A DNA stretch of 64,000 nucleotides, taken from the NCBI GenBank assembly GCA_014904985.1, contig MU128988.1, positions 155,804 to 219,803 of the forward strand, given 5' to 3'. Of the stretch, positions 10,400 through 64,000 are shown one piece after another; position 1 is the stretch's first letter, and each line of letters opens with the position of its first letter. A model generated the notes under the pieces. It searched no databases and was not told the origin of the DNA. It worked only from the letters and a program-made list of their open reading frames with translations. Origin of the DNA: Hydnum rufescens UP504. Its lineage: Eukaryota > Basidiomycota > Agaricomycetes > Cantharellales > Hydnaceae. The position numbers were made by a program, and so were the translations under genes.

Positions 10400-12400
10400 G
10401 ATGAAGGAGGTTTAGGGCTCCTGGTACGTCCTTGCACGCTTATTACTGAGATTAAAAATGCCACTGACACGGATAACAGCTATCCCAAATAGCAGCTATC
10501 ATCAGCCGTCGGGTTTTTGACCTCAACCCCCAGTCATTCAATGGTCCCAGTCAGTTAATGTTCGATCCTTCAAGTCAGTCTTTTGGCTCTGGTGGAACTG
10601 TGACTTTCGACTCTCATCCTCCCCTCGACAATCGTCATGCGGACGAGAGGCCCCGCAATAATTTCCACCTGCAACAGCACCTCCATTACCCATCTCCATG
10701 CTGCCTGCGTCTCGTGTTTTTTCACCCCTTCACAACGCCCGCTCACGCACACGATCCCCTCGGTGCTGCAGCAGCCTTTCACGCAACAGCAGTGGCCACA
10801 ATCTTGCCATCAACCACTACCACCAATGATCACCCCATCTCCCTGTCAAATCCCCGCGTCCCGACGTCGTTCATATGATCAAATGATTGACCCGATCCCG
10901 TATCTATGCTCACTGCCCTACCCCAGCTCTCAGCAGCAGTTCCACCACATCCGATTCTTCCGCTTCTCCCTCGCCCACAAGATCGTCTTTTTCTCCCGAT
11001 GTTCCCTTTGCCTACTCCCAGCCATCTCCAGAAAGCACTGACAAGCCTACCATGTCCTCTGTCGATATTTCGGGCCAGTCTTCTCTCAGCCAGCACACCC
11101 CTCCCAATGCCTCCTCCAACGGCGCAACAGATCACGACATCCTCCGAACCTGACAGTGGCCTCGCCCGTTCTACCCGACCAGCATCCCTCTATCGAACCC
11201 TGGGACCCAAAAACTACCCCACTCAACCAAGTCGCGCCCATCAAGTTCTTCCTCTGAAGCTAGGTTGACCCCAGCATTCGAAAACAAGGCATGTAATGCC
11301 TTCGATAAATCACACTGGTTCGACCAACTCTAGCCTGCTTTTTCTGTCAACAATGCAAGATTGCCTGTCCTCTGCCCCTGACACAGAAGACCTTTCTTGT
11401 GAGTAAGTACTCTTCCTCTACTGGCCACTAGTATCAATCCATTAATTTTGCAACTCTTTGTAGACAATGCGTGAGTCGCAATCAATCGTGCGTGTATCTT
11501 ACGCACACTCATTGTGATCTTCCAAAAGACAAACCTGTGAAGAAATTTATGGACAGAGGACATCTGTAACATGGGCCAAGGACCCTCACCGCCTTTTATA
11601 AGTTTTCGTGACACATGCCCAGTTCACAGTACAATGGTTTCACAAGCTGCTCTAGAGAAACTGACTACTGGGCTCATTGTTATACATGTCATAATTGTAC
11701 ACAATTTCAGGAAATACATACACCATTCATCATTTATGCCTTGACTTCTATCCTCTTTAAATGTATGAAAAGCAGAAAAATGGCCAAACTGGGGGCAATG
11801 CTTGAAATAATTTAGACAATCCCCATATATCACCCCACTGTCCCAACTGCATGAGTCGGGATTGGTGCTTGTCACTGCTACCGATTACATAATCGAGACC
11901 TGCGATGATGAAAAGAATGATGAAACAATACCAGAGGTGTGTCCTTGTACCACGTCTTCAGCACTTTGACAAGTTCTTTTAGTTTATCAGACATGGGAGT
12001 TCCTTATCAATTTTACAAAGTGATGTGGATCAGTGGCAATGGTCAAAGTCATTCTTGTAAGGTCTCATGTGGCAAGTCTGGTGATCACTGAATTAAAGTA
12101 CCATGGTGGCATTTTTGGCGACAAACTATATGAGCTCTGACCCCACGTCAACTAAACATGGGCATGGTCAGCCCCATAAATATGACTCTCTGGATCTCAA
12201 AAGAGAGGCCAAGAATGCCCAAAGAAGAGCATGATATGCACTATCACGAAGGTCTTTACTCAAATTATTATACTATTTAACTACATGGGTTAATTAAAGT
12301 ACTAGCACAGCCCTGGCCATAAGATGATATGCTAAAAACCCACGAAGCTCGTGTAATAATTGATGCTACTGCATGAGCTTCCTGCGATAGCATATTATTA
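10400..12400. other. Region with only weak coding signals
   Basis: The plus strand at about 10887-11153 reads as a Ser/Pro/Thr-rich peptide, and 11335-11500 shows a cysteine cluster (CQQCKIAC, then QCVSRNQSC) either side of an intron-like segment (GTGAGT at 11399, TTGTAG ending at 11463). This recalls a fungal Zn2Cys6-like pattern, but spacing and phase do not fit. Beyond 11650 no gene, RNA or repeat is seen. It may be the eroded end of a mobile-element gene. Confidence 0.25.
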
Positions 12401-12415
12401 CTAATATTCATTAAA

Positions 12416-12446
<31 letters not shown>

Positions 12447-13163
12447 TATTATCTATATTGCTACATACATCCAGTGAGCCAAATGGCTCACCCACAGTAG
12501 CACAGAAAGAGCGGCTCTCGACACTCCTTCTGTGCTACTAGAACAAAACGAAATCTTACACTATCACACCCACTGCAGCGGGTGTGGTTCTCACATGGTA
12601 CTCATCCGCTGGCATTCCATTTGTTGGGTCATCGTTCACTGCGGTTTTGTTTGCCAGGTTTGGGGATTGAGGTCGTACAGGCATGGGTGCAGGTTGTAGC
12701 CTAGGATAAACAATATGTTAGCTACAACTTAAAGCAGCGCAAAAAGAGCAGCCTTTGCTGCTCTTTTTGCGCTACTGTAACACAGAAGTCCAAAAATAAA
12801 ATAACATACCTCACCTGCCAAAACAGGTGTGGTTCATATGCCCATTGTTGGCTGGGGTTCCACATGGGGGGACCCCATTTCACGGTTTCATTTGTGGGGT
12901 TTAGCTTCGCGGGCTTCGTTTGCCAGGTTTGGGTCGCGGGGCTTCATTTGCTGGTTTGGGGTCGCGGGGCTTCATTCTCCAGGTTTGGGGTCATGGGTTT
13001 CACTCGGCGGGTTTCAGGTGGCAGGTTTGGTGTTGGGGGTCCAAGATCTAGAAAAGTAAACACGTTAGTTAAACATTAAAGCATTGCAAGAAGAGCAGCA
13101 TATGCTGCTCTTCTTGTGCCACAAAAATGAAAATAAAAAATAAAAAAAATCTCATCTTAGAGT

Positions 13164-13193
13164 ACCACACACCCGCTGCAGCGGGTGTGTGGT
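13164..13193. repeat. H1 hairpin, perfect 30-nt palindrome
   Basis: Arms ACCACACACCCGC and GCGGGTGTGTGGT flank TGCA, so the entire 30 nt is self-complementary. It is the best-preserved H1 in the left half of P1. The same 30-mer is at 15390-15419. Other H1 copies in P1 are near 12565, 12811, 13521-13548, 13881-13908, 14582-14612, 14833-14864, 15111-15138, 15717-15748 and 15985-16009. Confidence 0.95.
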
Positions 13194-13804
13194 TCCTGGG
13201 CCACTTGTTGGCCCTGGGTCGTTTCGTGTCTTCGTCTGGTGGGTGGTCCTTCTTCACCTGCATGGTATTCGTTTGGCGGGTGGCCTTGGGTGTGTGTTCA
13301 TGTGGTGGTGTTGTTTTGGGGGCTCAGGTTCGTTTGGCGGTTCTTCATTTGGCTGTCTGTTCTGTTCATTCTTTCCTTCATTTCATTGGCTGCAGGCCAG
13401 GCGATAACCTAGAAAAATAGATACATTAGTTAGAAATTGAAACCAGCACAAAAAGAGCAGCTTTCGCTGCTCTTTTTGTGTGGCTGTATCTACTTGGGTG
13501 GGGACTCACCTTATATAGTGCCACACACCCACCGCAGCGGGTGTGTGGTTCCTTGGGCCACTCATTGGGCGCATTGTCATCCATTGCGCCGTCGTCTGTT
13601 GCGTTGTCATCCATCGCACCGTCGTCTGTCACGTTGTTGTTTGGTGCGTTGCCATCTGTCGTGTTGGGTGTGTCATCATCTGTCGTGTTGCTGGTTGGGC
13701 CCCTGCCGTTTGGGGCCTCATCGTTTGGTGAGTGGTCGCCATGTGGGACCAGGCCATGATCTGAAATAATAAAAGATGTGTTAGTAAAAAAAATCCAAAG
13801 CAGT

Positions 13805-13836
13805 GCAAAAAGAGCAGCTTGTGCTGCTCTTTTTGC
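13805..13836. repeat. H2 hairpin in an outward-facing (minus) intron
   Basis: Arms GCAAAAAGAGCAGC (13805-13818) and GCTGCTCTTTTTGC (13823-13836) with a 4-nt loop TTGT. On the minus strand it lies inside an intron-like segment that starts GTGAGT just after H1 at 13908-13881 and ends TTTCAG near 13760. Other H2 copies in P1 are near 12733, 13081, 13443, 14655, 14896, 15174, 15455 and 16047. Confidence 0.95.
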
Positions 13837-14186
13837 GCTGTTGTATCTACTACGATTAAAAAAACACTCACCTTATATGACCACACACCCGCCGATGCGG
13901 GTGTGTGGTCGCCTGGTTGCCTTTCTAGGCGGTTGTTGCCTGTGGGTCAGTGGTTGCTTCAGTGGGTGGTGGTTGTGTAGTTGCGAAGGAAGATGCAACT
14001 CAATGCCGGCAATTGCCAGAACCCAAAAAGTGCCCAAGTGCTGGCACTACAAGCACCATATACATTAATAGCAATTATCTAGAAGTGTAACAAGGACTAT
14101 ATAATAAATATTTGTTCAAAATTATAAAAAAGACCATGATAATAAGTCAGAAATCAATACAGCACCATATGCCTGCATTGCACAGC

Positions 14187-14324
14187 AGATTAGGCCACTT
14201 CTATTGGTTAGAATTAGCCCAAATTTAAATATATTGGTGGTGTATATGTATCCTACATGGGTGACTAGTTATATTGGACGATCACTCCATTTTTGGATTT
14301 TTCACACCTTCAATTCCCTATTCC
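14187..14324. other. Central loop of P1
   Basis: The arms of the inverted repeat end at 14186 (CTGCATTGCACAGC) and restart at 14325 (GCTGTGCAATGCAG). The 138-nt loop resembles one half of the full central palindrome of P2 (for example AATATATTG, CTACATGGG and TTCACACC), ending CAATTCCCTATT, where P2 has its symmetry centre. P1 has therefore lost the matching half on the right. If the arrays are transcribed, this centre is where two outward promoters should lie. Confidence 0.75.
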
Positions 14325-14619
14325 GCTGTGCAATGCAGGCATATGGTGCCATATTGATTTCTGACTTATTATCATGGTCTTTTTTATAATTTTGAACAAA
14401 TATTTATTATATAGTCCTTGTTACACTTCTAGATAATTGCTATTAATGTATATGGTGCTTGTAGTGCCAGCATTTGGGTGCTTTTTGGGTTCCGGCAATT
14501 GCCAGCATTGAGTTTTCGTGACCCGCCGAAGCAGCAACCACTGAACTGGCACCCGACAACCGCCTAGGAAGGCAACCAGGCGACCACACACCTGCCGATG
14601 TGGGTGTGTGGTCAACAAG

Positions 14620-14726
14620 GTGAGTTTTTTTTATTGTAGTAAATACATCAGTGCAAAAAGAGCAGCGGAAGCTGCTCTTTTTGCGCTGCTTTGAATTTCT
14701 TTACTAATGTATCATTATTATTTTAG
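14620..14726 (+). other. Intron-like segment with H2, P1 right half, unit 1
   Basis: GTGAGT donor, H2 hairpin in the middle, CTAATG near the 3' part and TTTTAG acceptor; 107 nt. It follows H1 (14582-14612) by 7 nt and precedes the exon-like block 14727-14873. No transcript evidence is available. Confidence 0.6.
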
Positions 14727-14873
14727 ATCATGGCCTGGTGCAAAATACCAGGCCCAAATAGCAATATGCCAGACAAAAACACAATGAACGAGACCACGGC
14801 AGCCAGGGACCCGCCCAACAAGTGACCCCATGAACCACACACCCACTGCGGCAGGTGTGTGGTTCTATGTAAG

Positions 14874-14973
14874 GTATGTCACTCAGTGTACCCAACAGCG
14901 CAAAAAGAGCAGCATATGCTGCTCTTTTTGCGCTGGTTTTGATTTCTAACTAATGAGTTATTTATTTTTCTAG
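14874..14973 (+). other. Intron-like segment with 40-nt perfect H2 palindrome, unit 2
   Basis: Donor GTATGT, acceptor TTTCTAG, CTAAC branch-point word and 100 nt in total. Its H2 (14896-14935) is a perfect 40-nt palindrome with 20-bp arms, the longest in P1. The next exon-like block is 14974-15149. Confidence 0.65.
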
Positions 14974-15149
14974 GTTATCGCCTAACCCACAACACACAAA
15001 ATGAAGAACCACCCAACAAGAATGAACGAAACAAATGCCTGCCAAGGACACCCGCCAAACGAACCCTGGGCCCCTCAAAATGATACGGAGCCAACGAGTG
15101 GCCCCAGGAACCACACACCCGCTATGGCGGGTGTGTGGTACTATATAAG

Positions 15150-15251
15150 GTAAGTCTTCCCCAGTAGATACCGCTGCACAAAAGGAGCAGCTTAGGCTGC
15201 TCTTTTTGCGCTGCTTCCAATGTCTAACTAATGTATATTTTAATATTCTAG
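15150..15251 (+). other. Intron-like segment with H2, unit 3
   Basis: Donor GTAAGT, H2 with an 11-bp core, CTAACTAAT branch-point word, acceptor ATTCTAG; 102 nt. The exon-like block 15252-15429 follows and ends with the perfect H1 at 15390-15419. Confidence 0.65.
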
Positions 15252-15429
15252 GTCATGAATCTGAACCAACACCCGCACGAGCCCAGCTGAAACCCCGACA
15301 ACAAACAAAAATACAACCAACGAGGTAAACGGACACCAGCCAAACAAAGACCCACCCGACGAAACCCGCCGAACAAAGAACCCACGCCAACCACACACCC
15401 GCTGCAGCGGGTGTGTGGTAATATATAAG

Positions 15430-15530
15430 GTAAGTACATTCAGTGTATGCAACTGTGCAAAAAGAGCAGCAAATGCTGCTCTTTTTGCACTGGTTATGAT
15501 TTTTAACTAACATATTATTGATTTTTCTAG
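15430..15530 (+). other. Intron-like segment with H2, unit 4
   Basis: Donor GTAAGT, H2 (TGCAAAAAGAGCAGC arms), AACTAAC branch-point word, acceptor TTTCTAG; 101 nt. The following exon-like block (15531-15755) carries repeated CCAAATG/CCGAATG words and ends in H1. Confidence 0.65.
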
Positions 15531-15755
15531 GATATCACCTGAACCAGAACCCGCCAAATGAACACACACCAAATGAGCCCCCCTCCCCCCTCCCAAATGA
15601 CAATCTACCAAATGGACAACTGCCGAATGAATGCCCGCTGAACAAGCACCCGCTGAACAAGCACCCACCAAACAATAACACGCTGAACAGGCACCAACCT
15701 GGTGAGAGACCACCCCAACCACACACCCGCTGCGGCAGGTGTGTGGTAATTTAAG

Positions 15756-15798
15756 GTGAATTTGTTTTCAACATCTAACTAACACTTGATTTTTTTAG
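15756..15798 (+). other. Short intron-like segment lacking H2, unit 5
   Basis: Only 43 nt: GTGAAT donor, CTAACTAAC, TTTTTAG acceptor. Compared with unit 4 it lacks a block of about 58 nt that contains the whole H2 hairpin, while both intron ends are kept. So H2 behaves as a module separable from the splice signals. Confidence 0.6.
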
Positions 15799-16020
15799 GT
15801 TATTGCCTGAACCTCCACCAACAAAACAAAGGGTCACCGAATGAGAATGAACGGCCAAACGGAGACTGCCAAACCCGCAAACAATGACCCCCCAAAACCC
15901 CATGCCGAACAAGACCCACACAGATAACGAAAACCACCACCCAATGAAGACACGAAATGATGCAACACCGGGAACCCACATGAGCCACACCCACTTCGGC
16001 AGGTGTGGTGATTTTTTACG

Positions 16021-16117
16021 GTAAGTACTCAGGCTATATGTAAGATTGTGCAAAAGGAGCAGCACAGGCTGCTCCTTTTGCATGGCTTTTCTTTTTTCCA
16101 CTAACATACTATTCTAG
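16021..16117 (+). other. Intron-like segment with H2, unit 6 (last)
   Basis: Donor GTAAGT, H2 variant GCAAAAGGAGCAGC with matching compensatory change in the other arm (GCTGCTCCTTTTGC), CTAAC, acceptor ATTCTAG; 97 nt. The compensated pair suggests that the hairpin, not just the primary sequence, is maintained or copied as a unit. Confidence 0.65.
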
Positions 16118-16285
16118 GTATTCTTCTGACCCCACTGCCTGCACCTACCCCAACTAATCCTGCGACCCTGCCAAATATAAACCCGCGACCCTGCCAAATG
16201 TAAACATGCAACCCCAGGAGGGAGGGGGATAAGCTGTATGGTACATGTATAATAGTATAATAATAATAAATGAATAATTATGTGT

Positions 16286-16590
16286 TATGATCTGGGGAGG
16301 CACAGGGATTAATCTGAGAATGAGAACAAATAGTAATAAATAAACAATCCCAATTGCTGATAAGCCTGTATAGCCTGCTGACCCATTCAGGGGCATTCCC
16401 AGGCTTGCCAGGACCTATCCCGATACCCCCCAACCAATATAACCATGTGCTTCTGCTCACAGTGTTATTGATCCCGCTCTGGTTGATCCCCCCCGTGACT
16501 GATCCTCCCATGATTTACTGCTATACTTGTGGTCTTCCTGGATAATGCTATCCCACGAAGCTCCTGGCCTTAGCATCAATTTCTACATGA
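16286..16590. other. Spacer between P1 and the gypsy fragment
   Basis: No gene, repeat or RNA is recognised between the AT-rich end of P1 and the first integrase codons. Confidence 0.35.
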
Positions 16591-16615
16591 ACTTCGTGGA
16601 GAAATCTTACAGCCA

Positions 16616-17740
16616 GTGTTGGCTGATCGACCCTGGAACTCGATCGCAATGGACTTCATCACCAGACTCCCACCCTCCTCATTCGACTCCATCCGCGTTA
16701 TCATCAACCGATTCATGAAGATGGGTCTCTTCATCCCCACAGTCGCAACACTTCCTGCAGAAGGACTCGCTGACCTAGTCATCAATTGGGTCATATCCAA
16801 ACATGGTACACCCGCTGACATCATCTCAGATTGAGGCTCACTTTTCATTTCCAACTTCTGGAAATCGCTTGTGAAGAGACTCGGCATCAAACTCAACCTC
16901 TCAACTGTGTATCACCCTGAGACTGATGGCCAAACTGAGCATCTGAACCAAATCCTTGAGCAGTACTTGCGAATTTACGTCGACTACCTGCAAGACAACT
17001 GGGCACTACTTCTCCCCCTCACAGAGTTCGCATACAACAACGCCGAGCACTCCACGACAAACGTGACACCCTTCTTCATGAACAAAGGCTTTCACCCCAA
17101 CCTCAAGATCAACATCGAAGCAGTACCTTTGACCAAGGCCAACCAAGCCATGCTCAACCTTCATGATGTACACAAGTACATTTGCGACCAACTTGCGATC
17201 ACATGACAACAAAACAAACAGCAAGTAGCTGGATCACAACCTCCTTTCCCCACTCTCAACATTGGTGACCAGGTATGGCTCAACATGTGCAATATGAAAA
17301 CAAAGCGACCATCGAAGAAACTTGACCACAAAAAACTCAGTCCCTTCCCAGTCACCGAGAAAGTTTCAACACACGCATATTGCCTTGGTCTCCCTCACGC
17401 CATGAATCAAATCCACAATGTCTTCCATGTGTGACTACTCGAGCCCACTCACCCCAATCCCTTCCCCAATCGCACCCAACCACCTCCCCCACCTGTCGAA
17501 ATTGACGGTGAACTTGAATACGAAATCACTGAAATCATCAACAGCAAGATCAATCGTCGCCATTGCGGTAACAGCTTAATCTATCACATACGATGGTCCA
17601 GCTACAAGCACACCACCGACGAGTTTAGCTGGCTCCCAGCAGCAGAACTCACCAATGCTCACGAAGCAGTAATGGACTTCCATCGCACACACCCCAAAAA
17701 CCAGGATGAGAAGTACTCGACCTGGCAGTATAAATCGTGA
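16616..17740 (+). pseudogene. Gypsy integrase core and chromodomain, with stops
   Basis: The frame begins in the catalytic core (SIAMDFITRLP, first Asp). It shows HGTPADIISD with the second Asp followed by a TGA where Arg is usual, and YHPETDGQTEHLNQ with the catalytic Glu and typical context. A further in-frame TGA follows ICDQLAIT near 17203, and another follows HNVFHV near 17431. The C-terminal part has the chromodomain-like pattern YEITEIINSKI...YHIRWSSYKHTTDEFSWLP. These enzymes insert LTR-element cDNA and use the chromodomain for targeting to chromatin. The N-terminal zinc-binding part is missing with the rest of pol. Confidence 0.85.
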
Positions 17741-32359: not shown

Positions 32360-33808
32360 GAATCAGAGCTCTTGGCAGCTCAGAGATTTTATTAGTCCAG
32401 AGAAGGACTTCTGATCTTCCAAGATGCAGACTGGGTAGCCCAACTATGCATGCCGAAGTCAGAAATACGCAGGATACTCAAGGAATCACATGAGTCACCC
32501 TGGGAAACTGCCCATGCAGGATCCTCAAGGCTATTTCACAAGCTTGCCGCATGATTCTATTGGCCCAAGATGTGGGTGCATGTAGTCAACTACACTAAGA
32601 CATGCAACGTCTGCCAGAAGATTAAATCGGACAAACAAGGACCGATGGGAAAGCTATGTCCCCACGCCATCCCACTACTCCCATTCGAAGTGGTGACCCT
32701 AGACCTCATTACGGGCCTCCCGAAGTTGGAGGGGCATGACACAGTGCTAGTGATAGTGGACAAGCTCACCAAATTCGTCCAATACGTCCCCACCTCCTTG
32801 AGCTTAAAGCAGGAGGGCTTCGCCAGGATGTTCATCCAGCATGTCATCCTGAAATATGGTCTCCCAAGGCAGATGATCGCAGACCGGGACACCAGGTGGT
32901 CCCGATCCTTTTGGGCGTCAGTTGCCAAACACCTCGAGCTGGATCTACTCCTCTCGACATCCCATCACCCACAGACGGATGGACAAACGGAAAAGGCCAA
33001 CGACATGCTCGAAGTGGCGCTACACACTTACATGGCTGGGAATCACAGTTCCTGGGCCCAGTGGCTAGGAACACTCACGATGGCCCACAACTCAATGCCT
33101 CATTCCTCCACCGGTTATTCACCCTTCTTCCTTTTACACGGGTACTCCCCCAAGACTAAGGCGACTGCTATGGACCCAATAGGAAGGGGCATCGAACGGA
33201 CAGAGCTGGACAATGCAGCCACCTCTTCATTCGTAGGTGAGATGGAAGCCCATTGTTCACTAGCCTGGGATGCCCTAGCAAGAGCCCAAGCCAGGCAAGC
33301 AAAAGCCTATAATTTGCGAAGGCGCGACGAAGAATTTGAGGAAGGGGATGAGGTTCTAGTGAACCCCCACTCCCTCGAGCTGGTCGACGTGCAAGGCACA
33401 GGGAGGAAGCTAGTCCAACGACGCATTGGGCCATTTCAGATCTCGGAAAAGATAAATCCCGTAGTCTACTGTGTGAATATACCCCCCGAATATAAGATGC
33501 ACCCGATCATAAATATACAGCATCTGGTAAAATACCACCATGACAAGCAAGATGACAAACAAGCCAGGCTCCCCGAGCTAAGGGAACTGGCAAAGGAAGA
33601 AGAATACAAAGTAGAGAAAATCGTAGGACACTGCTACAATCGGTCGAGGAGAAGGAGGGAGTACCTAGTGAGGTGGAAAGGGTACGGGCCTGAGCACAAC
33701 ACATTCGAGCCCGAGCTGGGGCTACGGAACACCTTTTCTTGCCTCAGGGAGTACCACAGGACCCTGGAAGAACGTGGCAGCGAAAATGAGGACTCCATGA
33801 GGCCATAG
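32360..33808 (+). pseudogene. Integrase with C-terminal chromodomain, G1
   Basis: The N-terminal zinc-binding pattern is recognisable across two stops (H...H in ESHESPWETAHAG, then CNVCQKIKSDKQGP). From 32570 there is an uninterrupted 412-residue frame: VTLDLITGLPK (first Asp), ADRDTRWSRSFW (second Asp), HPQTDGQTEKAND (Glu). A GPY-like segment RRIGPFQISEKINPV follows, then a chromodomain (KVEKIVGHCYNRSRRRREY, LVRWKGYGPEHNTFEPE). The catalytic triad looks intact. Chromodomain integrases tend to target methylated-histone chromatin, fitting a TE-dense site. Confidence 0.92.
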
Positions 33809-40650: not shown

Positions 40651-40913
40651 TCGTGCATCTATTTTCATTGTCTGTGGAGTAAAGCTGACAGGATATGCTC
40701 TGCTAGATCCTCCCGTCAATATCTTGTGCATCATATGGCTCGTGTGCAACAAGGATCAGAGCAACCTATGGCGCCATGCCTTTCTGGTTCACATCGTCTT
40801 GTGCCTGAGGTGGTCATTCGCCTCGGCCGTCGTCCCACACCCCGTCGTCCCACACCCGTCCTCCCACACCCCGTCCTCCTACACCCCGTCCTCCCACACT
40901 CCCTCCTGTGTCT

Positions 40914-43657
40914 ATGCCTATGCCAACTCGGTCTTCTCGTAATACCCCATCCGATCAGTCACTGCAGTCGAACCTTCCAAGGGCGGACTCTCAGGTTTCG
41001 AAACGCCTGACGTCCAAACTAAAGTCCGCAACGGCTCGTACCAAAGTGAGGTCCAAGGCTGGGGAGAAAGATCCAACAGCCTCAAAGTTTGCAGTGCGTG
41101 GAGTGACTTCCGGGAGGGATAAGGTTGGATATTCTCGAAATGAGTCTCCAAGTCTTTCCTCGACCAGCCATGACATTCATTCCTCCCTTCCCATTCTGAG
41201 TCTCCACCCATCTAAACCCGTCATGGACTCGGCTTCTAACCCCCTCCAACCTCCTCTCACTGAATCTAAAAATGCCGCGACGTCGATCTCAGCTCGAAAT
41301 TCTAGCAATCAATCGACTTCAATATCACGGTCAACCTCGAAATCTGCCCTGCCTTCCCTGGAACATACCAAGGATTGTGGGGTTGATGTCGAGGACTCGC
41401 AGACGTTCTGGGGTGACGATTATATCATGGCAAATGCAATGTTAGGCATTGAGAGCTCAGGATCTGATGCTGATGCTGATTGGGACCCCACGATATCTAC
41501 TGGTGGCAAGGACCTAAGCGACGGAGAACACTTCAGTGATGCCAATAGTGCTGAAGATGTTCATGTGCGATCTACGGGCAAAGAGCCCAGCCCTGTGTGC
41601 TCAGTTGCCAAGAAGGCCTCTCCTGGGCCTCGTGGACATGGAGGTAGATTCTCGCAAGCTCAGTTGGACGAGGTTGAAAAGCACGCTGAACTGTTCCGGG
41701 GTGCGATGGCTAGCTTGGCCAAGTCGTGGGGCTGTCATATTTCAACGCTATATCGAGTGGCTAAAGTGGCGGGAGCTCTGAAGAAGCATCGACGACCAAA
41801 TGCTTGGAATTCGTTTCAACACCAACAAAAGAAGTTGAAGAAGACCCCCTCTGGTCTCGGTGTGTAGGTTTAATATTCGTCGCTCTACTCATTTTCTGAT
41901 GCCTTATATAGGAAAAGGAGGTGCAATCGTACGTCAACACCTTCAGCTGACATATGTCAAGCTGCGTGATGAGCTTGGGGGGCCCAGTTCTGAGGCCTGG
42001 CATGAGCATCGCAATATCCTTATAGACAATCTCAGTACAGAGAAAGCATCCGATACAGCTCGTATTGCCATGTCTGGAGGTGATGTGGCCCATCAGATGG
42101 CCTTATCCCGATCAAAAATCGATAGTGAGGTATGTACTATTCTACATATTTATTCATTCTGCGCTACATGGGCTAACATGCTGATGTCTAGGGACAGGCG
42201 CTTCGTCAGATTGGGGTTCATCTTGTGTACCTGATGGTGTCGGACCTCGCCTCCTCAACAGCAGCACATGGCCAGAACTCGATTAACTTCAACAGCGAGG
42301 AACTAAGGGCATGGGTGGACCATGAATGGAATTCTCGTGACACTCCTGAAATGAAGAAACCCCTTGCCTCGCTGTATACATATATTCTAGAGCGAAAGGG
42401 GGCGGCTGAAGACCTTGTTAAATTCTGCAAGGATCAGGATGAGGCTACTCATGCTAAGGAGACGAAGGATCAGTACACCTTATGGAAGGCCATCTCAGCA
42501 GATTTACTAAGGATGCTTCGTATGTATCCTTTGAAAGATCCACTGTTGAGATTTCTCATGAACCTACCTCGTGTCTCAGGATCACTGCAATTGGACTACA
42601 AGACTATGCCCTGGTCATCGATTGTTCAGAAAATGAGGTCATCGCGAATCTGCTGCGTCTGTTGGCCAGACATTGAGGGTATGCCTTTGCTTGGCACATT
42701 TGGTTCGGATGACCTCAAGACACATCATTGGCGACTGCTTTATGATGCGATACGCTCTATGGATGTGTTCACAACTCTCTGTTTTGAACGAATTGGTGAC
42801 TATGGTATGTCCTACCATTATAGTATTCTTGGATTTGATTACTGAATGGTTTTTTGGTAGACCTGGGTGATGATGATATCCTAGTCACCGGGATGAACAA
42901 TGTGCCATTGCTCACTGTGCGGCAGGCAGAAGGCCTCCGAAAGGGGAAGAAGCGTAAGATAGTGGAGGCCGAGGTTACCGATGAGTGTGCCGACGAAGGG
43001 TCTGGGTCAAAGGTTCTGCGAGTGGTTCCGCCTTCTGTTTCCGGCGGGCCGAAGCCAGCAAAGAGGAAAGGGAAAGGGAGACTAACCCCGAAGTCCCTCC
43101 CTTATATTGATGATGCCTCTGATGTGCCAGGTGACACTGCAATTTCAGTCCATGAACCTGAACCATCTCTATCAAACTCGTCTTTGCCTGAGACAATGCC
43201 AATTCCTACAGCCTTGCCAACTCCTCTGACAGACACAGGAGTTAATCCTTTCAGCTCAAAACCTGGCTCAACACCATCATATTTTCCATCATCTCTTCTT
43301 CCACCTTCGTCCACTCTTCCGCCTTCAACCAGTCTTCCACCTTCAACCACTCCTCCACCCTTGTCGCTCTGCCTCTGTCATCTACACTCCTCCCATCATC
43401 TACTTTTCCACCATTCGTCTACTTTTCCACCATCTACTTTTCCACCATTGTCCACTTTTCCACCATTGTCCACTTTTCCCCTGTCATCTACTTTTCTGCC
43501 ATCATCCACTTTTCTGTCGTTATCAACTGTTCCATCATCATCATCAACTTTTCCTCCACCCTCGATGCTTGCTCTGGGTGAAACTCAACTATTTGACTGG
43601 GATGATGTCATTCAGACTATACGCGCTCAATCTTCATACCAGGGTTCAGTCAGTTAG
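40914..43657 (+). CDS. Gene B-R: B-family protein, four exons
   Basis: First ATG at 40914. Exon 1 encodes a basic Ser/Thr-rich N-terminus, an acidic part, then GHGGRFSQAQLDEVEKH and PNAWNSFQHQQKKLKK. Proposed introns: about 41857 to 41911 (weak donor GTCTCG, acceptor TATATAG), 42130-42191 (GTATGT...GTCTAG) and 42805-42860 (GTATGT...TTGGTAG). Exon 2 carries YVKLRDELGGPSSEAWHEH and exon 3 QALRQIGVHLVYLMVSDLA, MPWSSIVQKM and FGSDDLKTHHWRLLYDAI, all with matches in B-L. The C-terminal exon has a lysine-rich patch (RKGKKRKIVE, possible nuclear signal) and a Ser/Pro/Thr-rich repeat tail ending at TAG 43655-43657. With these introns the frame is open throughout, so this may be a working gene. A chromatin or DNA-related role is a guess from the basic, nuclear-like composition. 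Confidence 0.65.
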
Positions 43658-49149: not shown

Positions 49150-50543
49150 CATGTCACTCCAGGGTCTTTTGGTATTCCCTGAGCTGCATGAAGGCATTCC
49201 ATAATGTGGGTTCTGGCTCAAACATGTCATGCTCCAGTCCGTATCCCTTCCAACATACTAGATATTCCCTCCTCCTTGTCTGTGGGTTATATCAGTGGCC
49301 TACCAGCTTCTCTACTTCATACTCCTCTTCGATGGATAGCTCTCTTAGCTCAGGGAGCTTATCCCTTCCCTCTTCTTGTACCTCCCAGTAGTACTTGGTT
49401 AGGTGCTGAATATTCATTACAGGATGCATTTTATACTCAGGTGGGAGATGCAAGCAATAGACTATGGGATTTATCTTCTCTGATATAGTGAAAGGTCCAA
49501 TATGCCTTTGGACTAATTTCCTTCCTGTTCCTTGTACATGGGTTCACTAGAACCTCATCTCCTTCCTCAAATTCATCATCACGCCTCTTCTTATCATAGG
49601 CTCTGGCCTGCCTGGCTTGGGCCTTTACTAGAGCATCTCATGCTTGAGAGTGATGCACTTCCAGCTCATCCATGAAGGTCAATGCAGATGCACTATTGAG
49701 CTTGAACCCCTCAATTCCTCTGGATACTGGGTCTATCACTACAGCTTGCATTAGAGGAGAGTATCTGTGCAATAGGAAGAAGGGAGAGTATCCTGTAGAT
49801 GAGTGAGGCATGGCATTGTGGGCCATTGCTAGCGTTCCAAGCCACTGGGCCCAAGAACTGCGATTCCCAGCCATGTAGGCATGTAGGGCTACTTCTAGCA
49901 AGTCATTCACTTTCTCCATCTGCCCATTGGTTTGGGGGTGATGCAAGGTGGACAGCATCAAATATAAATCCAAGTGCTTGGCTACTGAAGCCCGGAAGGA
50001 TTTGGCCCACCTAGCATCCTGATTTGCAATCATCTGGTGAGGAATGCCATATTTTAAAACAATGGTTTGCATGAACAACTTGGCAAATCCATCTTGCTTC
50101 AGGTGCGATGTGGTTGGGACATACTGAACAAACTTGGTGAGTTTATCCATGATTACCAGGACTGTGTCATGTCCCTCTGACTTTGGGAGACCTGTGATCA
50201 GGTCTAGGGTCACTACTTCAAATGGAAGGAGGGGGATTGCATGTGGACATAACTTCCCTATTGGACCATGCTTATCGGATTTGGTCTTCTGGCAAACATC
50301 ACAGGTTTTTGTGAACTCCACAACATCTGCCCACATCTTCAGCCAGTAGAACCTAGCCACCAGCTTGTGGAACAGCCTTAAGGATCCTGCATGTGCAGAC
50401 TCCCATGGTGACTCATGGGATTCCAGGAGGATTCTACATACTTCTGGTTTCAGCACACAGAGTCTGGTGACCCAGTCTGCATCATGAAATATCAGGAGGC
50501 CTTCATCCGATTTATAGAATTGTTGAGCTGCTGAGAGCTCCAA
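49150..50543 (-). pseudogene. Integrase with chromodomain, G2
   Basis: A 301-residue open frame (50543-49638) holds the zinc-binding part (HESPWESAHAG...CDVCQKTKSDKHGP), VTLDLITGLPK, ANQDARWAKSFRA (second Asp retained as QDARW) and HPQTNGQMEKVND (Glu). After a TGA near 49637 the remainder continues with the GPF-like region and a chromodomain (EVEKLVGH, REYLVCWKGYGLEHDMFEPE) to about 49150, with an extra base and stops. Several sites look like decayed CpG codons. Confidence 0.88.
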
Positions 50544-50786
50544 TTCATCAGCGACAGCCTCTTTCCAAGGCTGTTTGAAGCTGGGGTCACTTTGGTATCC
50601 TTTGACAAAGGCTTCTATTCAGGAGGGACTTGCTGAGATGTTGAGCATCTGTGGCATTCATTCCTGGCTGGGTGGGTTTTCTGTCCTGTTTCTCTGTGGT
50701 ACGGCTTCTGTTGTTCTTCCAGCTGCTGTTGGGGTGGTCCCTGCCATCTGCTTCTTCATCTGCACTCATGTCAATAGGAATGCGGC

Positions 50787-51635
50787 TCACTCTGCAGGCT
50801 TTCTCTTGACTGCATCTTCCCAGGCAAATATTGGTTGGGCGGGGAGCTGGCTGGGCAAGAGTGGGGATTTATCTTCTACAGGTGATTGATGCAGTGGTAT
50901 CTGTCGCAGCCTTGAGAGGGGGTCTACATTCAAGTGCACTATCCCTGCTTGATGTACTATATCCAAACCTGGATACACTGTGAACACTGCCCCCCATGCC
51001 GTGAGATGCCTGTTGGCATTTTCATATGTCCTTGCCCACTGTAGTGCTGCATGATCCATGATCACAATGTTTTTCTCACCTTTGATGAAGGGCTGGAAGT
51101 GCACTAGTGCTTCCTTCACTCCTAGGGCTTCCCTTTCTGTTGCCAAGTGGTTTTGTTCTGCAGATTTCAAGGACCTGCTCCAGTAGGCAATCACTCGTTC
51201 AACATGCACTGTAGTATCTTCCACATCTGGGGCCCAGGAATCAGAGTTGGGCACATCATCTGTATTCTTTGAAGCTTGATGCACCAGCTTTGGTATGGGT
51301 TTGTCTTTGGCATGCACGTCCAAAATCCTGTCGTGTAGCTTCGTACCCTTTAGATCTTTTACCATTATGGGTTGTACCTGCTGGAGGCTAGCTCCCAATG
51401 CTACATCTGAAGCATCAGAGTAAATGTGATACAGTCTTGAGGGCATGGGATGACCGAGCACTGGGGCAGAAACCAGGCCTTCCTTGACATCTTTGAAAGC
51501 CTGTTCCTGGTCTGCCCCCCAGTTCCATTTTACATCCTTGTGCAGAAGCTTGAATAGGGGTGCTGCTCTCTCTGAGTAGTGTAGTATGAAGTGTGAGAAG
51601 TACACTGCCATTCCCAAGAACATTTGAAGTGTCAC
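50787..51635 (-). pseudogene. RNase H of G2
   Basis: 282-residue open frame: RLYHIYSDASDVALGASLQQ (catalytic Asp), ATEREALGVKEALVHFQPF (Glu), IVIMDHAALQWARTYEN (Asp), and IVHLNVDPLSRL. Nearly uninterrupted, unlike in G1. It adjoins RT with one stop between them (51636). Confidence 0.88.
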
Positions 51636-60200: not shown

Positions 60201-60410
60201 GTGATTTCACCAGGGGGCCCCCAGGGGCCAGATAAGGTCATTTCAGATTGAGACATGGGGGGCCCCAGGGGCCCCTGCCCCAGAACTTAGACTGGTCAGA
60301 AAACTTCAATATATCGGGTTGGGGGTATTGGGTTAGGCACCTCTGTCAGTCACCTAATCTCAGACTTGCTGGCCAGTGGGCTACACAGGCTTATCAGGGA
60401 TGATGTATTT
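60201..60410. other. Spacer with GGGGCCCC-type palindromic runs
   Basis: Holds AGGGGGCCCCCAGGGGCC and GGGGGGCCCCAGGGGCCCC. Similar GGGGCCCCTGGGGGGCACC lies at 63939-63957 beyond P2, so P2 may sit between two copies of a flanking motif. No gene. Confidence 0.4.
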
Positions 60411-62025
60411 TATTCATAATTAATTATTTATTTATTTTTACTATATTATACACTACACCCAAGGCAGCAGTCTCATGTTTATTTATTTATTTAAAAATTC
60501 AAAAAAAAGACTATGAAGTAGCACCACACCCACTAGGGCAGGTGTGTGGTGCCCCCCCCCATTGCTTCATCGGGGGTTCAGCCAGTTTTCAAAGGGGGGG
60601 TTATCACTGGGGCAGCAGGTAGTATCTGTTGCACAATAACCTAGAATCAATAAAAAAAGAAGTTAGCTTTGAAGCAAAGTGGTGCAGAAAGTGCTGCTCG
60701 TGCTGCTCTTTCTATGCCACTTGCTAAACCAAAACAAAAAATACATATACCTTCTGTACCACACACCCCCCCTCAGTGGGTGTGGGGCACCAGGGGCATG
60801 TCCTGGTGGTTCACTGTTGGGTGGGTCATTTGGACAGGTTGCAGGTGGCTGTTGGGGTGGGTTGTTGTTTCGGGAGCTCCGGTCTGGGTCCTACAATAAT
60901 ACCATACATTAGTAAATAAAAATTCAAAGGGATGTAAAAGGAGCAGCTTGTGCTGCTCCTTTCACATCCCTGTATGTATAGAAATTTTTTTTAAAATACC
61001 TTGTAGTACCACACACCCACTTCGGGTGGGTGTGTGGTACTTGGTTGTGCCATGGCCACACATTTGGTTTTGCTTATGGGGGCTGGTTGTCATTTAGGCG
61101 GGTGGTCCAGTTTGTGGGTTTCTGTTCTCATGGGTGGGTTGCTGTTCTCACATGTTTGTCCAGTGGGGTCATGGGTACTGATTGGGGGGCTGTGGGTTCA
61201 GATGAAACCTAGGATAATAAATAATATGTTAGTAAAAAAGAAAAAGAAAAGGTATGCCAAAGGAGCAGTGTATGCTGCTCCTTTGGCACAATTGTATTTA
61301 TACAAGGAAGATACTTACCTTAATAAAATTACCACACACCTGCTTCAGCAGGTGTGTGGTTTGTCTGGGGGTTCCATGCCTTTGCGTTGTCTGTTCCCGT
61401 TCCTGGGTTTTGTCTGGTGGGTGTTCCTTGGTCAGTCATCATTGGCAGATTTCATTTGGTATTTGCTGTTTTGGTGGGTTGTGTTTGTGGCATTCATTTG
61501 GCAGGTGCATTGTCATTTTGGGAGGCAGGGGCTTCATTCAGTGGGTCTTCAATTTGGTGTTTGTGCTTCAGGTGATCACCTAGAGTAATAAATGCATTAG
61601 CTAAAAATTAAAACCAGTGCAAAAAGAGCAGCATTTGCTGCTCTTTTTGTGCCATTGGGGGTGCACTTACCTTATAGAACCACACACCTGCCACAGTGGG
61701 TGTGTGGTTCATGTGGCCACTTGGTCAGCACATGGCCACCTCTCATGTTCATGTTGTGTTGCATTTTCACTGGGTGTGGTTTTGTTTGGCACCATTTCAT
61801 TTGGTGTGGCCTCATTTGGGGGTGTTTTCAGTTCCTGTGTTGCTGTTTGGCCCCTGCCAGGCCGAGTCTTGTTGTTTGGTGGGATTATGTTTGGTGCCTG
61901 GGACCTGGCCATGACATAGAGAAATTAAAGTGGTCAGTAAAGAAATTCAAAGCAGCAAAAAGAGCAGCAAAAGCTGCTCTTTTTGCGCTGTTGTATCTAC
62001 TATGATAAAAAAACTCACCTTGTGA

Positions 62026-62840
62026 CCACACACCTGCCACTGCAGGTGTGTGGTCATTGCTTGCCTTTCTAGGTGGTACATGGGCAGTTGTAAGAAAGAA
62101 AGAATGTAACTCAACACTGGCAAATGCCAGCACTTCAAAAGCACCCAAGTCCCAGTGCCATGAGCATAATACAAATTAATAGGAAGGATCTAGACATGCA
62201 ATCAATATTATATAATAAATATTTGTCCAAAAAATGTGAAGAAGACAACAATAATCAGGCAGAGCTCAATAAGCCACGATATGCCTAATTGCAAAGAGGA
62301 TTAGGCCATTTCTATGGGTCAGAATTGGCCCAAATTTGAATATATTGATGGTACATATGCACCCTACATGGGCGACTAAATACATTAGATGTTTCCACCA
62401 TTTTTCAAGTTTTCACACCCTCAATTCCCTATTTAGGGAATTGAGGGCATGAAAACTTGAAAATGATGGAAATGTCTAATGTACTTAGTCGCCCATGTAG
62501 GGTGCATATATACCATCAATATATTCAAATTTGGGCCAATTCTGACCCATAGAAATGGCCTAATCTTCTTTGCAATTAGGCATATCATGGCTTATTGAGC
62601 TCTGCCTGATTATCATCATCTTCTTCACATTTTTTGGACAAATATTTATTATATAATATTGATTGCATGTCTAGATCCTTCCTATTAATTTGTATTATGC
62701 TCATGGCGCTGGGACTTGGGTGCTTTTGAAGTGCCAGCATTTGCTGGTGTTGAGTTACATTCTTTCTTTCTTACAACTGCCCATGTACCACCTAGAAAGG
62801 CAAGCAATGACCACACACCCACAGTGGTGGGTGTGTGGTC
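62026..62840. repeat. Near-perfect central palindrome of P2, arms about 405 bp
   Basis: Centre CAATTCCCTA TT TAGGGAATTG (62422-62443). Arms hold, outward from the centre: an imperfect TTTTCAAGTTTTC region, CTACATGGGCGACTAA, AATATTTGTCCAAAAAATGTG, CTAGACATGCAATC, the GCCAGCA motifs and the first H1. Only scattered mismatches are present. It is the likely shared start region of both arrays. Confidence 0.9.
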
Positions 62841-62940
62841 ACAAGGTGAGTGTTTTTTATCATAGTAGATACAACAGTGCAAAAAGAGCAGCATAAGCTG
62901 CTCTTTTTGCACTGCTTGACTAACATATTAATTTTTTTAG
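62836..62940 (+). other. Intron-like segment with H2, P2 right half, unit 1
   Basis: GTGAGT donor, H2 (GTGCAAAAAGAGCAGC arms), CTAACAT branch-point word, TTTTTAG acceptor; 105 nt. The corresponding P1 segment is 14620-14726 (107 nt), with the same order and spacing. Confidence 0.6.
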
Positions 62941-63122
62941 ATCCTGAACATGAGCCCAAACCAACTGGCGAATCCACGAGTACACCGCCAATGAGACCCC
63001 ATGCACGATTATGGGCCAATGCAGTAACAAACGAATGACGATGCATGCATGAAGCCATGGACCAGAAGAGCAGGAGAATCAGGAGCCACACACCTGCTGT
63101 GGTGGGTGTGTGGTGATATAAA

Positions 63123-63222
63123 GTATGTATTTTTTTCAATAGCTACAAACACACAAAATGAGCAGTCCCTGCTCTTTTTGCATGAGTATTACTTTTACCT
63201 AACACTTTATTCGTTATTCTAG
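63123..63222 (+). other. Intron-like segment with decayed H2, P2 unit 2
   Basis: GTATGT donor, CCTAACAC branch-point word, ATTCTAG acceptor; 100 nt. The hairpin is weakened (AAAATGAGCAGTCCCTGCTCTTTTTG). Exon-like blocks on either side are 182 and 113 nt. Confidence 0.55.
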
Positions 63223-63335
63223 GTTAAGATATCCCAAACAGCAATGCACCAAATGAGGACATGACACACTGCTACACACCAAATGAGGGCCCCAGGAACC
63301 ACACACCCATGGGTGTGTGGTCCTTCCTATGCAAG

Positions 63336-63441
63336 GTGAGTTCCCCCCCATAGATACAGCAGCCCAAAAAGAGCAGCAAAAGCTGCTCATTTTGCACTGC
63401 CTTTACTTCTTAACTGACTGACTCCTTTTTTTTTCTATTAG
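63336..63441 (+). other. Intron-like segment with H2, P2 unit 3
   Basis: GTGAGT donor, H2 GAGCAGCAAAAGCTGCTC, TAACTGAC branch-point word, CTATTAG acceptor; 106 nt. The preceding H1 is shortened to CCACACACCCATGGGTGTGTGG (62-type core, 22 nt; read as CCACACACCC and its complement). Confidence 0.55.
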
Positions 63442-63571
63442 GTCTCCACCTTTCAGACAAACAAATGCCAATGCGAGAACCCCTGCAACCTCCTGTATTG
63501 AAACCTGGCTGGTAATACACAAGGAAATAAAGTACCACACACCTGCAGCAGCAGGTGTGTGGTACTATAAG

Positions 63572-63642
63572 GTGAGTTTTTTTAAATTAATTTTGTGGCT
63601 TCTTAGATGCTTTCTTGTTTACCTAATGTATTGTTTTTCTAG
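63572..63642 (+). other. Intron-like segment without H2, P2 unit 4
   Basis: 71 nt, GTGAGT donor, ACCTAAT, TTTCTAG acceptor and no H2. Together with 15756-15798 in P1 it is a second case of a hairpin-free intron in the outer part of an array. Confidence 0.55.
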
Positions 63643-63930
63643 CTCTTGGACTCAAATCTGCAGGAATCCTTCAACCCCACACCTGCTGAGCCAAACCTGG
63701 CAACCCCAAACCCACCAAATGAAGACCCTGAGAACTCAAACCTGGCAAATGAAGACCTGGTGAGCCAAGCCAAGCCAACCCCCTAATGTAAAGGTAAGTA
63801 TTGTTGTTTCTTTGGCTACAATTGTACAAGAAGAGCAGCCTCTGGCTGTTCTTCTTGGGTGCATGGGTGAGCCCATGGATGTATATAATAATATTATAAT
63901 AATAATAATAAATTAATGATAATGAATAAT

Positions 63931-64000
63931 ATGGCTAGGGGCCCCTGGGGGGCACCTGGTGTGAACATCTAGTTAGATGTGATAAATGCAATGCAGATTA
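63931..64000. other. Right edge of window
   Basis: GGGGCCCCTGGGGGGCACC then unassigned sequence; nothing more can be said. Confidence 0.4.

Follow-up and report, generated by a model that had tools for sequence, protein, structure and literature searches.

P1, an element in the genome of Hydnum rufescens, is most probably (at roughly 60%) one copy of a large, TIR-bounded, non-autonomous mobile family, whose arms would be divergent spliced non-coding units with hairpins kept for an effect exerted as RNA. It lies within the analysed stretch of 64,000 nucleotides (the window). The earlier note on this DNA offered a choice between a multi-intron non-coding RNA and a mobile array in which hairpins and introns spread together. 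Both parts are joined here: the exons are non-coding, the splice signals have one orientation, the units point outward, and the flanks differ between copies. Spread as free units was not borne out. Spread by the whole element, with duplication of units within its arms, appears more likely, since the sites examined lie in arrays within a larger TIR-bounded element; these include two lone-looking H2 sites that were checked (L071 and L072).

Layout and ends of the element

P1 exceeds the extent of 12410..16285 given previously. Each of its units combines an exonic hairpin (H1) ahead of a splice donor with, as a rule, a second hairpin (H2) in the intron. The features, in window coordinates and with their basis in brackets, are as follows; right unit 1 and the left donors were placed by eye and sequence reading rather than by regular expression.

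12308..16621, no strand: whole element P1, TIR-bounded imperfect palindrome, ~4.3 kb (copy alignments, end matches, TIRs)
12308..12325, plus: left TIR CAGCCCTGGCCATAAGAT (A end), 18 bp (end matches, TIR comparison)
12340..12393, minus: left sub-terminal hairpin-like stretch H3 (copy alignment)
12494..12586, minus: left unit 5, outermost, degenerate, without clear acceptor (profile)
12701..12809, minus: left intron 4, GTATGT..CTAAC..TAG, 109 nt, H2 at 12740-12769
~12812-12831, minus: left unit 4, short H1 (by eye)
13048..13155, minus: left intron 3, 108 nt, AAG/ATGAGA at the donor, branch site and acceptor intact, H2 at 13087-13116
13165..13192, minus: left unit 3, H1 (profile)
13409..13509, minus: left intron 2, 101 nt, H2 at 13449-13478 (H2 and splice patterns)
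13521..13548, minus: left unit 2, H1 (profile)
13761..13871, minus: left intron 1, GTGAGT..CTAAC..CAG, 111 nt, H2 at 13806-13835 (H2 and splice patterns)
13881..13908, minus: left unit 1, H1 (profile)
13997..14514, no strand: central palindrome, arms 13997-14194 and 14317-14514, 95% complementary (computed)
14584..14611, plus: right unit 1, H1 (profile)
14620..14726, plus: right intron 1, 107 nt, H2 at 14654-14683 (H2 pattern and sequence reading)
14835..14862, plus: right unit 2, H1 (pattern)
14874..14973, plus: right intron 2, 100 nt, H2 at 14901-14930 (H2 and splice patterns)
15111..15138, plus: right unit 3, H1 (pattern)
15150..15251, plus: right intron 3, 102 nt, H2 at 15179-15208 (H2 and splice patterns)
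15391..15418, plus: right unit 4, H1 (pattern)
15430..15530, plus: right intron 4, 101 nt, H2 at 15458-15487 (H2 and splice patterns)
15719..15746, plus: right unit 5, H1 (pattern)
15756..15798, plus: right intron 5, 43 nt, without H2 (splice pattern)
15985..16008, plus: right unit 6, short H1 (splice pattern)
16021..16117, plus: right intron 6, 97 nt, H2 at 16051-16080 (H2 and splice patterns)
16545..16599, plus: right sub-terminal hairpin-like stretch H3 (copy alignment)
16604..16621, minus: right TIR CAACACTGGCTGTAAGAT (B end), 18 bp (TIR comparison)
60320..64000, no strand: P2, second copy with the same plan as P1, running past the window end (profile; left limit and centre by eye)

The alignment of five copies breaks off at 12308, and 35 of 44 genome matches to the left end begin exactly at its end base. 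The B end stands beside other flanks in four loci (L069, L070, L075, and L076). In total, the A end was found with 14 different flanks and the B end with 5, counts that omit two internal look-alikes and include a few A ends from a second element with this end in common. P1 thus has the inverted terminal repeats and sharp boundaries of a TIR DNA transposon. Judged by sequence comparison, the sharp ends and differing flanks show that P1-type elements are mobile. The flanks of P1 itself (TACTAGCA and GCTGATCG) do not match and no TSD was found; the two-ended copies compared are secondary duplicates with one set of flanks. No transposase partner was detected by Pfam among 12 distinct proteins (7 window ORFs and 5 relatives), of which a Gypsy integrase/chromo protein alone gave a match at E ≤ 0.001. 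An alternative right end at 16428, where seven genome matches stop, was rejected: the four ends that were readable (C177, C34, C415, and C26) join the same outside sequence. As read in these four of the seven, this boundary is a secondary duplicated truncation.

Around the centre, a wider palindrome (13741-14746) holds at 80%. AT-rich, TATA-like stretches seen by eye make the central palindrome a candidate bidirectional promoter. CCAAT boxes at the P1 centre were dismissed as a promoter sign; they are absent from P2 and from locus L040. In P2, minus-strand units start at 60787-62053, the centre lies at ~62430, and plus-strand units follow from 62811.

Units, splice signals and genome-wide occurrence

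The unit profile placed five minus-strand units left of the P1 centre (H1 starts: 12586, 12831, 13192, 13548, and 13908) and six plus-strand units right of it (14584, 14835, 15111, 15391, 15719, and 15986). All of these point outward, in agreement with the at least five units per side recognized earlier. Profile matches on the opposite strand of P1 were partial and confined to the palindromic H1 or H2. At up to three mismatches, H2 occurred at 13 sites in the window versus 0 in each of 100 shuffles.

The order of splice-like signals reported previously, on the minus strand in the left half and on the plus strand in the right, was confirmed: CTAAC...YAG follows the donors and closes the introns, and the same pattern recurs genome-wide. 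The claim that H1 precedes a GTRAGT donor holds for most units (AAG/GTRAGT); GTATGT, GTGAAT, and ACG/GTAAGT also occur, and left unit 3 reads ATGAGA. In this unit the GT donor is missing from all five aligned arms, yet the unit persists. The H2-bearing introns are near-constant in length, as had been stated, with the range of 97-107 nt now corrected to 97-111 nt (right: 107, 100, 102, 101, and 97; left: 111, 101, 108, and 109) and a length of 43 nt for the intron devoid of H2. The exon lengths of 147, 176, 178, 225, and 222 given before proved exact on sequence reading. A single H2 is present in nine of the ten P1 introns with clear ends; as placed by eye, it starts ~27-36 nt past the donor and stops at least ~16 nt short of the branch site. 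The array units have shared ancestry.

The H. rufescens genome contains 4,527 H2 and 4,387 H1 sites, with 0 matches to reversed-pattern controls. The earlier note had made its reading depend on the hairpins keeping donor/acceptor context. In the loci examined, 133 of 143 H2 sites have a donor on one side and a branch site/acceptor on the other in exactly one orientation, compared with 539 of 4000 random positions in the same loci taken in either orientation. The dependence is looser for H1, with a strict-pattern donor at 88 of 122 sites and none at the other 34. Among the neighbouring units listed, 22 pairs within 2.5 kb were divergent and 1 convergent; within 4 kb, these numbers were 30 and 8, a rise in convergent pairs as adjacent elements would give.

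Hairpins, exons and competing readings

In a set of 148 units, GNRA loops cap H2 in 43 of 135 cases on the sense strand versus 2 of 135 on the antisense strand, and UNCG loops cap H1 in 34 versus 5 of 131. Genome-wide, on the outward strand, GNRA exceeds its complement by 375 to 28 (1808 H2 loops) and UNCG by 87 to 18 (460 H1 loops). Letter permutation within loops predicted 15.8 (H2 GNRA) and 4.5 (H1 UNCG). Pooling the units by flanking sequence gave 13 versus 1 of 31 for GNRA and 24 versus 5 of 60 for UNCG. Since the arms lie on opposite strands, sense loops in both of them do not result from selection on one DNA strand. In 13 inner H2 pairs, G-U cells outnumber A-C cells on the sense strand (39 vs 7); wobble asymmetry in the H1 stem, used as a strand test, gave no signal (67 vs 61). 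Compensatory, both-sided changes were found in 10 of 25 consensus pairs.

Identity between distant arms is 99.5% in the H2 stem, 97.5% at the branch site, 92.1% in the H1 stem, and 75.2% in exons, in a comparison that amounts to about one lineage pair, the arms used (L040, L006, and L007) being close relatives with shared flanks. The 9-nt donor window is only 77% identical; in unit 3 GT is missing and the window used was offset inward by 3 nt, and unit 4 has a different donor sequence.

The palindromes by themselves would suit a DNA-level foldback, with units that are tandem sub-repeats homogenised by recombination and splice-like signals that are the relic of an ancestral intron, devoid of a present role. 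All six elements examined, which were picked for matches on both strands, are long inverted repeats of tandem sub-repeats, and L048 is a 99.6% palindrome. Of the 28 complement-class matches, 20 are the flipped H2 loop TTTC, as palindrome inversion would give; one or more of these is a GAAA unit read from its opposite strand. We nevertheless consider this reading improbable: the GNRA and UNCG loops are biased to the sense strand, the branch site and H2 stem are much better kept than their surroundings, and T-poor exons (10.4% T) alternate with a T-rich intron part (37.9%).

Conservation of a lone H2 in nearly every intron could also point to intron-encoded RNA: the spliced RNA would be no more than a carrier, and each intron would release its H2 hairpin as the actual product, perhaps as a source of small RNAs. 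The contrast between H2 stem and exon identity, the sense-strand GNRA cap and the compensatory stem changes agree with such a product, which leaves unexplained why the exonic H1 is kept and capped as well. One P1 intron (15756-15798) has no H2. A Rfam search of the window yielded no family at gathering score, and no C/D or H/ACA RNA, so H2 belongs to no known snoRNA class. Nor is H2 a classical mirtron, the hairpin ends of which coincide with splice sites; it lies mid-intron. Taken together, this explanation is rather unlikely.

The earlier conclusion that the exons do not encode protein was upheld, and by three sequence tests the array exons are non-coding. Exon indels between distant arms are multiples of three in only 1 of 9, 3 of 21, and 2 of 24 cases. 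Among 94 exons, no frame is depleted of stops, the length classes modulo 3 are even (30/33/31), and open exons per frame (20, 14, and 21) fall below those in shuffles (24.5, 25.1, and 25.3); the arrays hold no conserved reading frame. A degenerate protein-coding family, whose repetitive exons are rich in PNE and carry hypothetical-protein annotations, is therefore highly improbable, although one frame is open in part of the exons and H. rufescens has two public gene models. Public gene model P0001 (contig C106) has one intron exactly at a predicted junction. Its preceding intron is placed at a GT within H1, off the predicted donor, which suggests that the model may be ab initio. Exon bodies are no less folded than their own shuffles (mean z 0.13), so their low structure is an effect of composition.

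Proposed role and related systems

Under the favoured reading of P1 as a mobile element with spliced non-coding arms, a promoter-like central palindrome would serve two outward arms, each a multi-intron non-coding transcription unit. In nearly all predicted introns a long H2, in many cases with a GNRA cap, separates the donor from the branch site; the putative exons end in H1, often UNCG-capped and mostly 7-11 nt ahead of the donor, and have T-poor bodies. Transcription would begin near the centre in both directions, with H1 and H2 folding during RNA synthesis. By looping out ~30-45 nt, H2 may let a 100-nt intron act as a short one, and H1 together with the U-poor exon may keep the donor open. 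RNAi can be triggered by stalled spliceosomes. Repeated efficient splicing would be expected to increase RNA accumulation in a basidiomycete, and would keep the RNA from RNAi set off in this way. The element would move by means of a transposase supplied elsewhere.

Exon-junction complexes bind ~24 nt before junctions. In a bolder and distinctly unlikely version, P1 would be a selfish element for which splicing as such is the cargo: its idealised, hairpin-guarded introns would mimic a model host transcript, thereby evading both stalled-spliceosome RNAi and nonsense-mediated decay, the latter because H1 covers the stretch where these complexes bind.

Provided that the arms do yield spliced transcripts, this would be a mobile element selected for intron quality and RNA hairpin shape, not for protein. 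The ~4,500 natural H2 copies would then form a library for hairpin effects on splicing in vivo and would make it possible to test directly if intron evolution in transposons serves to evade RNAi coupled to the spliceosome.

No description of such elements was found in the titles and abstract openings of the literature surveyed, chiefly outside subscription journals. Host genes of snoRNAs (GAS5/UHG) are non-coding and spliced, with weakly conserved exons and one structured RNA in each intron. P1 shares this plan, its spliced host being predicted, but differs in having no Rfam match, an additional exonic hairpin, mobility, and a palindromic structure. Introners reside in host genes, whereas the sites listed here, which come from the first contigs, cluster in arrays. 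The likeness to introner-like elements of fungi (PMC4457414) is that a single fungus carries numerous spliceosomal introns resembling one another; those of P1 form arrays among non-coding exons, enclosed by a TIR-bounded element. With hAT-like non-autonomous TIR transposons P1 has in common the CARC..CTGG inverted ends, precise boundaries, and different flanks; it is unlike them in its cargo of two intron arrays and in the TSD and transposase searches reported above. Foldback transposons of the FB/TU type have long inverted repeats of tandem sub-repeats and occur in many copies. The P1 family resembles them in both respects and in that no coding sequence was found, but its sub-repeats resemble introns, bearing splice signals as well as RNA tetraloops specific to one strand, and its TIR is short (18 bp).

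Anatomy and outward orientation of the arrays

The genome around the window comprises 63.2 Mb in 539 contigs. The following features were recognized in the window, the limits of element P1 being set by alignment and by its inverted ends.

Features of the window
12308-16621: P1, whole element (alignment limits and inverted ends)
32555-33808: Gypsy-type integrase/chromodomain (Pfam)
40812-41867: hypothetical protein, no Pfam domain
49638-51635: pol fragments (by eye)
about 59.4-60.1 kb: Copia-like fragment, left of the second copy, P2 (by eye)

Six of the 11 database matches of the hypothetical protein were from H. rufescens (at most 93% identical); the rest were from JGI and other sources (at most 98%).

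The left (A) end of P1 is CAGCCCTGG..., where the alignment of five copies breaks off, and the right end, CAACACTGG..., is its inverted partner. Among 44 left-end matches in the genome, 35 begin exactly at the end base; the remaining nine are P1 itself, four whose start is shifted by 3-4 bases, and four that lie internally. The right end recurs with other flanks in loci L069, L070, L075, and L076. The innermost arms of P1 are 95% complementary.

Each unit contains a hairpin at the exon end (H1), a donor, an intron hairpin (H2), a branch, and an acceptor. The profile of these parts identified five minus-strand units left of the centre of P1 and six plus-strand units right of it; opposite-strand matches in P1 were limited to the palindromic hairpins. 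The same layout recurs in P2 at the window's right end. Genome-wide, 4,527 H2 sites (at most one mismatch) and 4,387 H1 sites (at most two) were found, with no match to either reversed pattern. Neighbour orientation was scored for 192 oriented units of the first contigs, among the matches listed (H2 with CTAAC, H1 with donor); eight H2 rows were omitted, six being wrongly oriented (CTAAC on the A-rich side) and two being repeat matches on one H2. Divergent (-+) neighbours within 1.5, 2.5, and 4 kb numbered 14, 22, and 30 among the matches listed, and convergent (+-) ones 1, 1, and 8. The outward orientation described in the earlier note is thus borne out.

Splice context, conservation, and coding potential

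Hairpins lying outside a donor/acceptor context would, by the earlier note, speak against its reading. In the sampled loci (deduplicated), a donor, a branch, and an acceptor accompanied H2 in one orientation only at 133 of 143 sites, and at no site in both. For H1, the strict donor pattern was found at 88 of 122 sites (one of these in both orientations) and 34 lacked it, including near-donors such as AATGTGAGT and TGGTGAGT. Of 4000 random control positions in the same loci, taken in either orientation, 539 passed the H2 test and 443 the H1 test.

Distant pairs among five homologous arms, a comparison approximating one pair of lineages because the three distant arms have common flanks, were 75.2% identical in exons, 99.5% in H2 stems (four stems), 97.5% at the branch, 92.1% in H1 stems (three stems), and 91.7% at the acceptor, and only 62-73% in hairpin loops. 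The donor window reached 77%, a low value because unit 4 is divergent and the A-arm unit 3 (13048-13155, minus strand; its window placed 3 nt too far in) reads AAG|ATGAG in all five aligned arms, with branch and acceptor intact. Likewise, AAGATGAGT is read in 8 of 100 H1-plus-donor matches genome-wide, among the matches listed. Folding of 17 window units recovered both H1 and H2; 10 of the 25 pairs had changed on both sides.

The exons are non-coding, as claimed previously. A protein-coding reading was rejected: indels in multiples of three made up 1/9, 3/21, and 2/24 of the exon indels, no frame of the 94 exons had fewer stops than shuffles, and exon lengths were spread evenly over the three mod-3 classes. 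On the outward strand, T content is 10.4% in exons and 37.9% in the intron part. Predicted folding energy of exon bodies per nt was -0.165 sense and -0.299 antisense (60 of 94 exons); these bodies fold no weaker than same-letter shuffles (mean z 0.13), and composition therefore accounts for the folding energy.

RNA-stable tetraloops on the outward strand

The stems of H1 and H2 are near-perfect palindromes and barely separate the strands, so strand was read from the 4-nt loops. GNRA and UNCG are extra-stable RNA tetraloops, and they are kept on the outward strand. In 148 non-redundant units, omitting any with a different loop size in the best hairpin, H2 loops were GNRA in 43/135 sense versus 2/135 antisense readings (GAAA, GTAA, GCAA, GGAA, GAGA), and H1 loops were UNCG in 34/131 versus 5/131 (TGCG, TTCG, TACG). 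Permuting letters within each loop gave expectations of 15.8 and 4.5, respectively. After grouping by flanking sequence, which lessens the effect of shared ancestry, the counts were 13 versus 1 for H2 (31 groups) and 24 versus 5 for H1 (60 groups). Genome-wide, 1,808 matches of H2 followed by CTAAC (an H2 with two CTAAC scoring twice) included 375 GNRA loops and 28 of the complementary class; 460 H1 matches with perfect stem and donor included 87 UNCG and 18 complementary loops. Were a single DNA strand the target of selection, opposite loops would be favoured in the left and right arms, because these occupy opposite strands; the bias observed is what selection on an outward RNA would predict. 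In 13 inner H2 pairs, G-U cells exceeded A-C cells (39 versus 7), as RNA pairing would tolerate, with a small bias from the hairpin finder, which itself admits G-U pairs. No G-U excess was found in H1 stems (67 versus 61).

The 28 complementary H2 loops comprise eight TCAC, apparently the other strand of GTGA units, and 20 TTTC, the exact inversion of GAAA. At least one TTTC match (C9:456502) is a GAAA match read from the opposite strand; TTTC loops in otherwise ordinary units (e.g., C6:6495, C41:304399) thus account for at most 19 of the 28. They may have arisen when a hairpin was inverted or when opposite arms underwent conversion. A second H2 sub-class, whose stem reads ...CTTTTGG and whose loops include ACCA and CCCC, occurs in divergent arrays at C2:642375-645404, C1:89110-92734, and C5:84534-87801.

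Proposed mechanism, class, and mobility

We propose that a central bidirectional promoter would drive outward transcription of the arms, which would then be spliced. The array protein query returned two annotated proteins in Hydnum rufescens UP504. A public gene model on contig C106 has an exon join exactly at the predicted second intron (ALYK|VIAW); it supports the predicted junctions weakly because its preceding intron is set at a GT inside H1. The main rival reading is snoRNA-host-like, with H2 as the product. With outward splicing of the arms, an element RNA well spliced at every step would profit from greater accumulation and from feeding RNAi less. Stalled splicing feeds RNAi in Cryptococcus neoformans. 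In this species, the effect of introns in raising RNA accumulation is cumulative (PMC3744415).

The element that carries the arrays is foldback-like, non-autonomous, and bounded by TIRs. Of the novel mobile array suggested earlier, mobility stands and novelty does not extend to this carrier, which belongs to a known class; the hairpin-intron unit repeated in it, with its strand-specific tetraloops, is of no kind that we recognized, and a literature search found no description matching it. P1 and a copy on contig C262 are 92% identical with differing flanks, and their differences are mostly transitions (57 versus 4 in exons), a pattern to be expected from methylation or RIP-like decay. Several further copies with one common set of flanks are secondary, and independent insertions are therefore fewer than copies; some A ends counted with differing flanks come from a second element sharing that end. 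All six elements examined, chosen for matches on both strands, are palindromic about their own centres.

An element in L047 and L049 has the CAGCCCTGG end and the hairpin in common with P1 and a different interior with repeats like GGGCAGATCCATATCGGG. In L049 it sits inserted within an H2 hairpin, and its sequence seems to extend into the window start (1-200). Locus L048 contains a 99.6% palindrome (1-1796; G000:C148:25500-27300), centred in non-element sequence with element ends on both sides, which is either a recent inverted duplication or an assembly artefact.
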